From NCBI RefSeq assembly GCF_008727875.1, contig NZ_VTWS01000001.1:1550001-1614000 (forward strand): a stretch of 64,000 nt of DNA. Direction: 5' to 3'. Below the pieces are notes generated by a model. That model was not told the DNA's origin. It was given only the letters and a program-made list of their open reading frames with translations, and did not search any database. Position numbers and translations under genes: made by a program. Numbering within the stretch: position 1 is the first letter of the stretch; the number at the start of each line of letters is the position of its first letter. Positions 38,354 through 42,302 of the stretch are shown here, piece by piece. The DNA is from Larkinella humicola (lineage in GTDB: Bacteria > Bacteroidota > Bacteroidia > Cytophagales > Spirosomataceae).

Positions 38354-38803
38354 ATGGCTCTCCAAATCGGCGACGCGGCTCCCGACTTCGAAACCCGCGA
38401 TCAGAATGGCAACCCCGTCCGTCTGTCGGATTTCCGGGGCAAGAAAGTCGTTCTGTATTTTTATCCAAAAGATGACACGCCCGGTTGTACGGCCGAAGCC
38501 TGCAACCTCCGCGACAACTACCAGTATCTGTTGAAAGCGGGGTATGAAGTGCTTGGCGTGAGCGTCGATGATGAAAAGTCGCACCAGAAATTTATTAAAA
38601 AACACAACCTGCCGTTTGCGCTCCTGGCCGATACCGATCAAAAACTGGTGACGGCCTATGACGTCTGGCACGAAAAATCGATGTATGGCCGCAAATTCAT
38701 GGGCATCGTCCGAACCACCTTCGTAATCGATGAAAATGGCGTTATTGCAGACATCATTACCAAAGTCGATAACGAGAATCACACCGAACAAATCTTAAAA
38801 TAG
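38354..38803 (+). CDS. bcp: Thioredoxin-dependent thiol peroxidase (BCP-type peroxiredoxin)
   Basis: A 149-residue peroxiredoxin of the Bcp/PrxQ group. The active site PKDDTPGCTAEAC carries peroxidatic Cys45 and resolving Cys50, five residues apart as in PrxQ. It reduces peroxides in the cytoplasm using thioredoxin. The start at 38354 (MALQIGDAAPDFETRDQNG) is chosen over 38303 because homologues begin here. It is 66 nt after the M23 peptidase and 73 nt before the transketolase gene, with palindrome E in that gap. Confidence 0.94.
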   Translation: MALQIGDAAPDFETRDQNGNPVRLSDFRGKKVVLYFYPKDDTPGCTAEACNLRDNYQYLLKAGYEVLGVSVDDEKSHQKFIKKHNLPFALLADTDQKLVTAYDVWHEKSMYGRKFMGIVRTTFVIDENGVIADIITKVDNENHTEQILK

Positions 38804-38815
38804 AAGTGAAATTAT

Positions 38816-38858
38816 AGACAAGAGAGTAAAGACTTCCATTGTCTTTATTCTCTTGTCT
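38816..38858. repeat. Palindrome E: 18-bp arms, 7-nt loop
   Basis: Arms 38816-38833 and 38841-38858 with one mismatch, built of AGACAAGAGAGTAAAGAC-like words; a partial third copy continues to about 38872. It lies between two co-directional genes, 18 nt before the transketolase N-subunit ATG. Confidence 0.88.
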
Positions 38859-38876
38859 CAACTCTTTTGTCTGAAT

Positions 38877-39734
38877 ATGGAAATCCAACAATTACAACAC
38901 GTTGCTACGCAGGTCCGGCGCGATATCGTCCGGATGGTACACGCCGTCAATTCCGGTCACCCGGGTGGTTCGCTGGGCTGCACCGATCTATTAGTCGCCC
39001 TGTATTTCGACGTCATGCGACTGAAACGCGACGAACAGGGTGCGGCTATTTTTGACATGAATGCCACCGACGAAGATGTTTTCTTCCTATCGAATGGCCA
39101 CATTTCCCCGGTTTTTTACAGCGTTCTGGCGCGTTCGGGCTACTTCCCGATTGCCGAGCTGGCGACGTTCCGGAAACTCGACAGCCGCTTGCAGGGGCAC
39201 CCGGCCACGGCAGAGCACCTGCCCGGTATCCGGATTGCTTCCGGTTCACTGGGTCAGGGTTTGTCGGTAGCCTGCGGGGCAGCTTTTGCCAAACGGCTGA
39301 ACGGCGACGACAAACACGTTTACGTGCTGATGGGCGACGGTGAGCAGCAGGAAGGACAAGTTTGGGAAGCCGCTACGTTTGCGCCCCACCACAAACTTGG
39401 TAACCTGACGGCCATCATCGACTTCAACGGGCAGCAGATCGACGGGCCGACGAATCTGGTCATGAACAACCGGGATCTGGGTGCCAAATACCGCGCTTTC
39501 GGCTGGAACGTCACCGAAATGCAGGGCAATGACATGAATGACATCGTTAAGACGCTGCACGACTCGAAAACCGATGCGGAAGTGCCGACCCTGATTCTGA
39601 TGCATACGGAAATGGGCTTTGGCGTCGATTTCATGATGGGAAGCCACAAATGGCACGGCGTTGCTCCGAATGACGAACAACTAGCGACCGCCCTAAACCA
39701 GTTGCCAATCACGGCCGGAATGGGAGATTATTAA
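38877..39734 (+). CDS. Transketolase, N-terminal subunit
   Basis: A 285-residue protein equal to the thiamine-diphosphate-binding N-terminal third of transketolase. Motifs: VNSGHPGGSLG, GHISPVFYSVLA, GSLGQGLSVACGAA and the TPP/Mg block GDGEQQEGQVWEAA...NLTAIIDFNGQQIDG. With the C subunit it moves two-carbon ketol units in the non-oxidative pentose phosphate pathway. The split form is a known arrangement. The start at 38877 follows palindrome E; an ORF start at 38853 lies inside that repeat. Normally the two subunit genes are adjacent; here two other genes (39736-41252) separate them. The spacing to the next gene is 1 nt. Confidence 0.95.
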   Translation: MEIQQLQHVATQVRRDIVRMVHAVNSGHPGGSLGCTDLLVALYFDVMRLKRDEQGAAIFDMNATDEDVFFLSNGHISPVFYSVLARSGYFPIAELATFRKLDSRLQGHPATAEHLPGIRIASGSLGQGLSVACGAAFAKRLNGDDKHVYVLMGDGEQQEGQVWEAATFAPHHKLGNLTAIIDFNGQQIDGPTNLVMNNRDLGAKYRAFGWNVTEMQGNDMNDIVKTLHDSKTDAEVPTLILMHTEMGFGVDFMMGSHKWHGVAPNDEQLATALNQLPITAGMGDY

Positions 39735-39735
39735 G

Positions 39736-40692
39736 ATGAAGATCAAACGCCTGGTCATCGAAAATTTCAAATCCATCGAACGGATTGAGCTCATCGAGCC
39801 CAATCCGTTCACGGTATTCGTCGGCCCCAACGGGTCGGGGAAATCGAATATTTTCGAGGCTTTGGAGTTTGTGAATCTTCGAGATAAGCTTGATTCGGTT
39901 CTTAGTTTATTTGGAGGCCCTCAAAATCTTTTGAGACGCCAAAATCGATCTGCCGATTTTGGCTTTAATTGCACGTTCAATGAACTAGAATCGCGAATTG
40001 GTTTTAGCTATGCAGCACATTATCCTACTAATAATGACCATAGGCAACATAAGCCAACAGCTGACTATCTAGAGTATAAGCAATTTTTCAACACTTTTAC
40101 ACGGCTATTTGTCAGAAATAAAAGGCTAGAAAAGTTGAATTTGAATGACAATCAGCGCTTATCGCTTTCAGCCGATAATCTCGAAAAGGTGTTGAAAAGA
40201 GTGCTTTCAGATAATATATTAAAAAACGAAATCTTCGAGTGGTTAGAATTGTTCATACCAGAATTCAAAGCTGTTGAAATAGACGAACGCGATGAACTTC
40301 ATTGGTTTGAGGAATTTGCTCCAAACTACTTCATAAAAGAACTGATATCTGACGGTACCTATAATATTCTGGCAATGCTTACGGCAGTTTACCAAAGCGA
40401 CGATAAACCTCAGTTTCTTTGCATCGAAGAGCCTGAAAACGGCCTGCACCCACAAGTTGCGGGTGAATTAGTTGATTTCTTTCGCATTATGTGCGAAGAG
40501 CGTGGGCATCATATTTGGCTGAATACCCATTCGCAGTCCATGATTGCCCGACTCCGTCCAGAAGAAATGGTGATCGTTGATAAAAAGAAAGGAGCAACCC
40601 GGATTAAACAGATTTCAAAAGAAGATTTTAAAAATTGGCGCATGGATGAAGCCCTGCTGACAAATGCTTTTGGAGGTGGGCTACCATGGTGA
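39736..40692 (+). CDS. AAA family ATPase (AAA_21/OLD-like), candidate defence component
   Basis: A 318-residue ABC/SMC-type ATPase. Walker A GPNGSGKS (30-37), a signature-like SDGT (205-208), Walker B FLCIEEPENGLHP (227-239), and H-loop NTHS (263-266) are all present, so it is probably active. The helical insert (about 50-200) is short compared with RecF or SMC proteins. The C terminus WRMDEALLTNAFGGGLPW is typical of AAA_21 proteins paired with TOPRIM or nuclease partners. The gene lies between the two transketolase subunits and overlaps the TOPRIM-like gene by 7 nt. Hand counts of GC are 38/60 at 39781-39840 and 18/60 at 40081-40140, so the Walker A end is host-like and the middle is not. 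A role in phage defence is inferred, not shown. Confidence 0.88.
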   Translation: MKIKRLVIENFKSIERIELIEPNPFTVFVGPNGSGKSNIFEALEFVNLRDKLDSVLSLFGGPQNLLRRQNRSADFGFNCTFNELESRIGFSYAAHYPTNNDHRQHKPTADYLEYKQFFNTFTRLFVRNKRLEKLNLNDNQRLSLSADNLEKVLKRVLSDNILKNEIFEWLELFIPEFKAVEIDERDELHWFEEFAPNYFIKELISDGTYNILAMLTAVYQSDDKPQFLCIEEPENGLHPQVAGELVDFFRIMCEERGHHIWLNTHSQSMIARLRPEEMVIVDKKKGATRIKQISKEDFKNWRMDEALLTNAFGGGLPW

Positions 40693-41252
40693 AAGTAGGG
40701 TTTATTTGTGAGGGAAAAACCGAAAAAGAAATTATTGAATCAACTAGTTTTCAAGAATGGCTAAATCAAAATAACCTTCATTGCATTGACCCGGTTTTTG
40801 ATGTTGCAGGAAGTGGTAATTTGCTACCCCATCGCTTAAATGACGTGCGAGATGTGTTGCTCAGGAATGGAGCTGAAGTTCTTTGTGTTTTGACCGATCT
40901 AGATCAAGATCGATGCATTACAATGACTCGTCAACGCATAACCGAGCAGTCAAAACAACACATATTTGTATCAGTACGACAGATCGAGTCTTGGTTTTTG
41001 AGCGATTCGATTACGCTTCGCAAATTATTTTCTGATAATACATTTGAATTTGAAAGTCCGGAAGCCGAACCCAATCCCTTCTTTACCCTGAAGCGTTTGT
41101 TTGAAACCAAAACTCAACGCGGTGTTGGCACCAAACCCATGCTGGCTCGACGGATGATCAAATATGGCTTCTCCATCGAAAATGCCGCCAGCCACCCCCA
41201 TTGCCCCAGTGCGAATTACTTTTTAACTAAATTGCAATCGCTTAGACCATGA
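40686..41252 (+). CDS. TOPRIM-like (DUF4276/RloB-type) protein, candidate nuclease partner of the ATPase
   Basis: A 188-residue protein. The N terminus MVKVGFICEGKTEKEI provides the first TOPRIM glutamate (Glu9) and LCVLTDLDQDRC the DxD pair (Asp71, Asp73). SVRQIESWFLSD (97-107) matches the E-x-W/x-L-x-D block seen in DUF4276 and RloB-like proteins found next to AAA ATPases. I infer a metal-dependent nuclease or effector acting with the ATPase, as in AbiL, OLD or PARIS-like modules; which group it belongs to is not settled. It overlaps the ATPase gene by 7 nt and the transketolase C gene by 4 nt (ATGA). GC by hand is 21/60 at 40981-41040 but 31/60 at 41101-41160, again a shift within one gene. 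Confidence 0.8.
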   Translation: MVKVGFICEGKTEKEIIESTSFQEWLNQNNLHCIDPVFDVAGSGNLLPHRLNDVRDVLLRNGAEVLCVLTDLDQDRCITMTRQRITEQSKQHIFVSVRQIESWFLSDSITLRKLFSDNTFEFESPEAEPNPFFTLKRLFETKTQRGVGTKPMLARRMIKYGFSIENAASHPHCPSANYFLTKLQSLRP

Positions 41253-42208
41253 AAAAATACACGTATACCGAAAAAAAAGACACCCGCTCCGGTTTTGGTG
41301 CGGGCATTCTTGAACTGGGCCGCACCAATCCCAACGTCGTTGCCCTGACCGCCGATTTGGCCGGATCACTCAAACTGGAAGGTTTTATTAAGGAATTTCC
41401 GGACCGCTACGTGCAGTGCGGGATTTCGGAAGCCAACATGATTGGCGTCTCGGCCGGGCTGACCATCGGCGGAAAAATTCCGTTTGCCACCACCTTCGCC
41501 AACTTTGCTACCGGTCGGGTCTACGACCAGATCCGGCAATCGGTTTGTTATTCGAACAAGAACGTCAAAATCTGTGCTTCCCACGCCGGTTTAACGCTGG
41601 GTGAAGACGGGGCCACGCACCAGATTCTGGAAGACCTTGGCATGATGAAAATGCTGCCGAACATGACTGTCATCAATCCCTGCGACTTCAACCAGACCAA
41701 AGCCGCCACCATCGCCATCGCCGATTACGAAGGCCCGGTTTACCTGCGGTTTGGCCGCCCGGTGGTGCCGATCTTCACGCCCGCCGACCAGAAATTTGAA
41801 ATCGGGAAAGCCATTGTGCTGAATGAAGGACCGGATGTCTCCATTTTTGCGACGGGCCACCTGGTTTGGGAAGCCATCAAAGCCGGTGAAATCCTGGCCG
41901 AAGAAGGGATCGAAGCCGATATTATCAATATTCACACCATCAAACCGTTTGATGAAGAGGCCGTTCTCGCTTCCGTTCGCAAAACCCGGTGTGCGGTATC
42001 GGCCGAAGAACATCAGTTGAACGGCGGTTTGGGCGACAGCATAGCCCAGGCGTTGGCCCGCAACTATCCCGTCCCGCTCGAAATGATTGGCGTACACGAC
42101 AGTTTTGGAGAAAGCGGAACACCCGATCAATTGATGCAGAAATACGGCCTGACCGCCGGGAAAATTGTTGAAGCGGCCAAACGAGCCATTGAAAGAAGAG
42201 TCGTTTAA
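41249..42208 (+). CDS. Transketolase, C-terminal subunit
   Basis: A 319-residue protein equal to the pyrimidine-binding and C-terminal domains of transketolase. Motifs: TRSGFGAGILELGRTNPNVVALTADL, QCGISEANMIGVSAGL, the TPP-pyrimidine region TTFANFATGRVYDQIRQSV, and SHAGLTLGEDGATHQ. It pairs with the N subunit at 38877. Its ATG overlaps the TGA of the TOPRIM-like gene, so translation is probably coupled to the inserted pair. The stop codon lies at the left edge of palindrome F. Confidence 0.95.
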   Translation: MKKYTYTEKKDTRSGFGAGILELGRTNPNVVALTADLAGSLKLEGFIKEFPDRYVQCGISEANMIGVSAGLTIGGKIPFATTFANFATGRVYDQIRQSVCYSNKNVKICASHAGLTLGEDGATHQILEDLGMMKMLPNMTVINPCDFNQTKAATIAIADYEGPVYLRFGRPVVPIFTPADQKFEIGKAIVLNEGPDVSIFATGHLVWEAIKAGEILAEEGIEADIINIHTIKPFDEEAVLASVRKTRCAVSAEEHQLNGGLGDSIAQALARNYPVPLEMIGVHDSFGESGTPDQLMQKYGLTAGKIVEAAKRAIERRVV

Positions 42209-42297
42209 AGTTTAAAGGGTTAAGGTTAAAGATGAACCGGAAAGCGATTCCGATAGACACTTTAAACCTGAAACCTTTAAATCTTAAACTTTAAACC
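42203..42297. repeat. Palindrome F: imperfect inverted repeat of TTTAAA-rich words
   Basis: Outer arms (GTTTAAAGTTTAA, with its inverse ending at 42296) pair over 13 bp; inner parts (GGTTAAGGTTAAAG and CTTTAAACCTGAAACC) pair loosely. The words GTTTAAAG and GGTTAAAG recur. It contains the stop codon of the transketolase C gene and ends 6 nt before the sigma factor ATG. Confidence 0.75.
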
Positions 42298-42302
42298 AGC
42301 GT

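Follow-up and report, generated by a model that had tools for sequence, protein, structure and literature searches.

What is a gene pair for an ATPase and a TOPRIM protein doing between the two subunit genes of transketolase, and how is it kept there? The pair, hecA-hecB, fills the gap between tktN and tktC in a 64,000-nt stretch of the Larkinella humicola genome (the window; all coordinates are positions in it, on the forward strand). An earlier note on this DNA had seen two open reading frames (ORFs) between the two transketolase genes, spaced by a 1-nt gap, a 7-nt overlap and a 4-nt ATGA overlap, and had taken them for a candidate defence module, a compact one lodged in a housekeeping operon that would give it constant, translation-coupled expression; the coordinates and Pfam matches below bear out the layout and the identity of the flanks. 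We consider it reasonably probable that hecA-hecB is a PARIS-like sensor/effector defence pair of the HEC-01 type, present at one fixed site and with segments exchanged by recombination. The features on which the argument turns are as follows.

38877..39734, + strand: tktN, transketolase N subunit (Pfam Transketolase_N, 1.5e-50); start ATG 38877, alternatively TTG 38853
39736..40692, + strand: hecA, SMC/OLD-type ABC ATPase, HEC-01A, 318 aa; 1-nt gap after tktN
39736..39870, + strand: anchor 1, HecA 1-45 with Walker A; tracks the host lineage
39871..40230, + strand: V1, HecA 46-165 (core 46-122, gradual right edge), hypervariable exchangeable module and putative trigger sensor
40231..40515, + strand: HecA 166-260, middle part with SDGT and Walker B, better conserved
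40516..41159, + strand: V2, HecA 261-318 plus HecB 1-158; largely independent of the host lineage
40686..41252, + strand: hecB, DUF4276-like TOPRIM protein, HEC-01B, putative nuclease effector, 188 aa; 7-nt overlap with hecA
41160..41252, + strand: anchor 3, last 30 codons of hecB; tracks the host lineage
41249..42208, + strand: tktC, transketolase C subunit (Pfam Transket_pyr, 1.5e-40; Transketolase_C, 3.5e-29); 4-nt ATGA overlap with hecB

One site in the Spirosomataceae

Among named relatives, the nearest tkt genes are those of L. knui, L. punicea and Larkinella sp. C7 (94-97% identical), of the family Spirosomataceae. With HecA matches at E<=1e-25 as the threshold for a carrier, 71 of 222 genomes of this family carry hecA and 151 have no match at this level. 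The hec loci could be placed for all 71 carriers, giving 72 loci. In 65 of these the pair is flanked by tktN and tktC, and in the other seven a contig end takes the place of one of the two tkt flanks; hecB is present in 71/72, missing only where a contig ends. The 25 strong matches in named genomes, partly the same genomes, are likewise all at the tkt site, one of them with tktN only where the contig ends. Empty sites and second tkt loci were tallied from 135 tktN rows and matching tktC among the matches listed. The 126 tktN-tktC pairs found there include 46 carrier loci with gaps of 1517-2497 nt, 12 second tkt loci of carriers, all of them empty, and 68 non-carrier loci, in which the gap is 12-190 nt in 65 and holds a Uma2-like gene alone in two; one non-carrier, G012, retains 84 residues of a decaying hecA start, interrupted by stops.

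The overlap between hecA and hecB is 7 nt in 71/71 loci holding both genes, and hecA has a lower GC content than tktN in 68/68 loci compared (means 0.38 and 0.51), so that the arrangement is not due to chance. The GC content at third codon positions (GC3) of hecA and hecB follows that of tktN of the host (rho 0.76 and 0.82), which suggests that the pair has long resided at this site. A recent insertion into the window genome can be rejected, since site and overlap recur throughout the family and GC3 follows the host, and a one-off cassette is not supported either. That note had also held that the defence interpretation would fail if essentially all relatives had the pair at this position with a housekeeping phylogeny, and had proposed looking at relatives with and without it. 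Presence in essentially all relatives is rejected as well; the pair is patchy and AT-rich, the phylogeny of its interior is not that of a housekeeping gene, and other cassettes, Uma2-like, also occur in the gap.

Inherited ends and an exchanged interior

Distances among hec loci were compared with tktN distances segment by segment (Spearman correlation, 65 loci; the frameshifted hecB rows of G009 and G186 and contig-truncated rows were dropped). Correlation was highest for the two ends, HecA 1-45 (0.77) and the last 30 codons of hecB (0.60), and low for HecA 46-122 (0.27) and for V2 at 0.19-0.22 (HecA 261-318, 0.22; HecB 1-158, 0.19-0.21), with HecA 123-165 (0.39), 166-210 (0.52) and 211-260 (0.33) in between. 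Both ends exceeded each of six interior segments in 300/300 bootstraps over the loci, a comparison that left out HecA 123-165 and 166-210, and when genus g5 was removed they were still highest (0.65 and 0.45 vs 0.16-0.37). Saturation alone is insufficient to account for this, because HecA 201-260 has diverged to no greater extent than tktN (mean p 0.30 and 0.31; 59 loci) and yet correlates with it at 0.36 only.

The window pair itself displays the same mosaic. Its nearest sequences come from Larkinella over the initial 120 nt of hecA and over the final 60-90 nt of hecB, the bin 39777-39836 being 92-100% identical to the four other carriers of the genus. In most bins across 40257-41097 the nearer sequences are those of G204 and G218, members of genus g5, which is taken as Spirosoma (the pair position in G202 is that in Spirosoma endophyticum); in two of the bins it is Larkinella G002 that is nearer. 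The five Larkinella rows form a clade in tkt and also in HecA codons 1-48 (support 94); for the hecB tail the support is 25 only. By the approximately unbiased (AU) test a single Larkinella clade is rejected for HecA 136-318 (p 4e-4) and HecB 1-158 (p 2e-45); without the window row the values are 0.055 and 3e-4, respectively. Judged from these comparisons, the two ends of the pair are chromosomally inherited, and lineages exchange the greater part of its interior.

Two modules that can move separately

Close pairs of loci (tktN synonymous divergence, dS, <0.3) reveal where exchange has occurred. In 9/9 such pairs, which represent seven independent groups with some genomes shared among pairs, the nonsynonymous divergence (dN) of HecA 49-135 is 0.88-1.48. 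Four of them (G080/G082a, G217/G197, G153/G151 and G189/G188) are 95-100% identical outside V1 and 9-24% identical in HecA 46-122, with two exceptions outside V1, the HecB tail of G080/G082a (81%) and HecA 166-260 of G153/G151 (78%); HecA of G217/G197 is 100% identical from residue 166 onward and 24% in 46-122. In the other five pairs more of the interior differs besides V1, and in G180/G183, with a tktN dS of 0.03, nearly the whole interior does. Conversely, G080 and G082b share a V1 that is 100% identical over 130 residues and have HecB 1-158 segments just 32-46% identical. Differences confined to V1, together with a V1 shared by different HecBs, indicate that V1 and the effector segment are separately exchangeable, so that V1 and V2 can, on the sequence evidence, move separately.

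V1 is of very low conservation with many insertions and deletions; its left boundary is sharp, at residue 46, and its right edge is gradual. V1 cores are recognisably similar (E<1e-3) in 213/2485 pairs, and their length is 67-111 residues in 69/71. When the 361-base V1 piece of G217 was searched as DNA in ten genomes, it found itself and a weak 50-base match in G153 (E 3e-4), with none in the other eight. Outside the family the pattern was seen once: HecA of G507/G515a has 94% identity in the first 48 columns of the alignment and 17% within the module. The two E. coli alleles compared show little difference anywhere.

Loss of the pair

Empty gaps were searched for remnants of the pair; 35 of 40 were long enough for both ends, and each was compared with 60 shuffles. 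The hecB end is kept in G205 and G216, G149 and G150 have a hecA start fused to a hecB end, and G011 has a hecA start. No shuffle equalled the hecB-tail scores of G205, G216, G149 and G150 or the hecA-head scores of G149 and G011; the head score of G150 and the tail score of G011 were each equalled by a single shuffle. The head of G024 and the tail of G129 were one point above the shuffles and are discounted given 70 tests, and loss-scar scores of the 14-15-nt empty gaps of Larkinella were not above shuffles. Since remnants are found in several empty sites, the pair has evidently been lost there, that is, in several lineages. A tkt tree was built from 103 rows, of which 61 have the pair and 42 lack it (40 selected empty sites and the two loci with Uma2 alone). 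It requires a minimum of 22 changes of presence, as against a mean of 32.8 and a minimum of 27 among 200 sets of shuffled labels. Presence of the pair is partly inherited, and the pair is often lost or gained.

Protein family and motifs

HecA has the motifs of an OLD-type ABC head, namely Walker A GPNGSGKS (30-37), the signature SDGT (205-208), Walker B FLCIEE (227-232) and the H-loop H265, and HecB has the Glu and DxD of a TOPRIM fold (E9, D71xD73, E101). As first noted from the window alone, these are present, and they prove nearly invariant in the family: G30, K36, S37 and E232 are kept in 71/71 HecA proteins and H265 in 70/71, and E9, D71 and E101 in 69/69 HecB proteins. The AlphaFold model of HecB (pLDDT 94.7) has OLD, GajA and PARIS as its nearest structures, and a search of the HecB sequence against solved structures gave a best match of E 0.44. 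In the HecA model, confidence is low at residues 91-110 and the rest of V1 is folded with good confidence.

A profile search, proposed in the earlier note, placed both proteins in HEC-01: HecA matches PDLC04176 (E 5.3e-86), and the adjacent gene on the same strand, hecB, matches PDLC04191 (E 1.5e-64). The models are those of PADLOC-DB 2.0.0 (2023), and they are matched by 62/62 aligned HecA and 66/66 aligned HecB proteins. Because both proteins match HEC-01, the family is by profile already catalogued, as a candidate defence system. The assignment to a candidate defence family of ATPase/TOPRIM pairs therefore holds, and the suggestion of an undescribed subtype does not. The partner is closer to DUF4276 than to RloB: HecB scores 24.5 bits against Pfam DUF4276 (PF14103; gathering cut-off 30.2), with 33.2 and 29.7 for the orthologues L006 and L022, and 11.8 bits against RloB, well below the cut-off of 31.5 (E 0.27). 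HEC systems were reportedly defined in a preprint of Payne et al. 2024. A passage of PMC12988326 expands HEC as Hma-embedded candidate and presents several HECs, including HEC-06, as active, HEC-01 being unnamed in that passage; an excerpt of PMC12724379 mentions HEC-01 by name.

Operon context and other occupants of the gap

A further feature lies upstream of tktN:

38816..38858, + strand: 18-bp hairpin, possible terminator or leader structure (minimum free energy, MFE, -28.1 kcal/mol for 38800-38876; z -5.2)

After tktC, the region 42205-42302 contains an inverted repeat (MFE -24.2 kcal/mol, z -3.6), possibly the operon terminator. From the gene overlaps and the stable hairpins before tktN and after tktC, hecA-hecB and the tkt genes are probably on one transcript.

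A Uma2-like gene lies between tktN and hecA in 13 loci (L053, L048, L052, L059, L061, L064, L066, L068, L069, L075, L076, L079 and L085) and alone between tktN and tktC in L083 and L084 (G126, G132); that of L053 was profile-tested (Pfam PF05685, 5e-33) and the rest were assigned by eye. The gap accepts other cassettes too. Also by eye, an alpha/beta hydrolase-like gene was found between hecB and tktC in G185 (L070 1511-2582), and a 103-aa RelE-like toxin ORF before hecA in G186 (L065), where hecB is apparently frameshifted. Short TGTAGAGACGCAA...TTGCGTCTCTACA palindromes occur in the gaps beside hecAB in L024, L028, L032 and L041, on both sides in L028 and L032, and may help cassettes move. 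G082 has two hecAB copies (L049, L050), of which one adjoins tktN and the other tktC. Both lie at contig ends, and either the pair is duplicated in tandem or the assembly mixes two strains. In L132, from a contig titled Flavobacterium sp. SUN052, the pair lies between a tktN 81% and a tktC 90% identical to those of the window, and the record label is doubtful. The tktC of G228 (L039, L139; matching a Spirosoma telluris record) is split over two frames, through sequencing error or as a broken gene.

Homologues outside the family

Two E. coli plasmids were read, and in both the order is pglX-hecA-hecB-pglZ of BREX-1. DNA closely related to the plasmid HEC-01B is present in 26/5426 E. coli genomes and touches pglZ of BREX-1 in 25/25 places listed. 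One partial HecB match was found in the viral contigs searched and one partial match in phages, and the plasmid search returned 11 E. coli records, with 39-40% identity among the 10 matches listed; with matches of this kind there is no near mobile carrier among the sequences searched. In a search of the phylum, PDLC04191 was matched in 6/395 genomes, three of them outside the family (four loci), and tkt was absent from the 10-16 kb read around these four loci. In two genomes outside the family (L175, L178) the HEC-01 pair lies downstream of a methylmalonyl-CoA mutase-like gene (by eye), again with a metabolic gene nearby.

Proposed mechanism and rival explanations

By analogy with PARIS, an ATP-bound HecA assembly would keep the TOPRIM protein HecB inactive until a phage or other invader product is recognised via V1; HecA would then release or activate HecB, which would cut nucleic acid (tRNA or DNA) and stop growth, an abortive outcome. 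An arms race over recognition would drive the exchange of V1, V2 would comprise the effector plus docking surface, and the conserved ends and transketolase flanks would provide homology for recombination of incoming alleles. Anti-phage activity of the pair is thus far inferred.

The same pair could be a selfish toxin-antitoxin or inter-strain conflict element, with HecB the toxin, HecA the antidote and the polymorphism serving self/non-self typing. A core-gene neighbourhood would aid the persistence of an addictive element, and hecB is apparently frameshifted in G009 and G186 while hecA stays open, which a costly HecB would explain, but these frameshifts may be sequencing errors, because tktC of G228 is split too. 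The remnants, however, are evidence that several lineages have lost all or almost all of the pair, so that its loss is tolerated; a DNA search of the own genome found no second or silent copy of hecA-hecB; and the E. coli relatives lie within BREX operons. Toxin and antidote should moreover stay matched, whereas V1 and effector shuffle separately, and we regard this explanation as unlikely.

It is quite unlikely, in our estimate, that V1 is unconstrained filler, fast-evolving or hypermutating, and no exchanged functional module. Its very low conservation, many indels and gradual right edge would fit such filler, as would the low model confidence at residues 91-110, but the sharp left boundary, the narrow range of core lengths and the good confidence of its other parts would not, nor would the perfectly shared V1 of two loci with different HecBs. 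The fixed position on the same strand, with overlapping genes, might instead point to a housekeeping role tied to transketolase, the pair regulating or repairing something in the pentose phosphate pathway. Against this, most family genomes have no match at the carrier threshold, the second tkt loci of carriers listed are empty, most interior divergence ignores host relatedness, and homologues outside this site are found within BREX or next to other genes; we regard such a role as very improbable.

The defence reading can be carried further. Tentatively, and as a possibility towards which we do not yet lean, the tktN-tktC gap would be an immune specificity locus of a bacterial family, where an abortive-infection pair draws V1 and its effector segment independently from a shared recombining pool, with the conserved ends as anchors. 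If true, the locus would exemplify innate immunity whose specificity can be swapped in the manner of HsdS and that belongs neither to restriction-modification nor to a defence island. The family is known; in the literature searched, which did not extend to the defining HEC preprint, we found no account of site-locked two-module exchange or of residence in a core operon, nothing relevant joining transketolase with antiphage, operon or Spirosoma, and nothing on DUF4276. The phage-recognising part of ABC-ATPase/TOPRIM systems is known in few cases, and natural allele pairs nearly identical save for one module could allow recognition to be assigned to that module. A defence-like pair long resident in a core metabolic operon would, in addition, be missed by searches relying on defence neighbours.

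Comparison with known systems

The window pair has the same gene order as HEC-01 of E. coli, and the 7-nt overlap is also found in both plasmids read. It differs in that HecA is 318 aa long vs 373 aa in E. coli, in sequence (identity 30% for HecA and 39% for HecB) and in lying in a transketolase operon, whereas the E. coli pair lies within another defence system. In the profile comparison with PARIS (AriA/AriB), no AriB-named match to HecB was found and the HEC-01 models scored far higher. An excerpt of PMC12839542 covers both OLD ATPases linked to TOPRIM within BREX loci and the mechanism of PARIS, and one of PMC12409363 the tRNA targets of AriB; in the part of PMC11341690 consulted, PARIS lies within a Salmonella BREX and showed no activity against the phages tested.

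An ABC ATPase coupled with TOPRIM is common to the window pair, OLD, GajA of Gabija, RloA-RloB and AbiL, and structures of OLD and GajA are among the best matches of HecB. OLD and GajA, however, are one chain, in contrast to the two genes hecA and hecB, and from RloA-RloB and AbiL the pair differs in that HecB matches RloB at the E-value given above and AbiLii at 0.0017 only. In its mode of evolution the pair would resemble HsdS, the specificity protein of type I restriction, in which conserved parts surround an exchangeable recognition segment. The proteins are unrelated, and in hecA-hecB the variable part sits in the ATPase and the effector is exchanged too.
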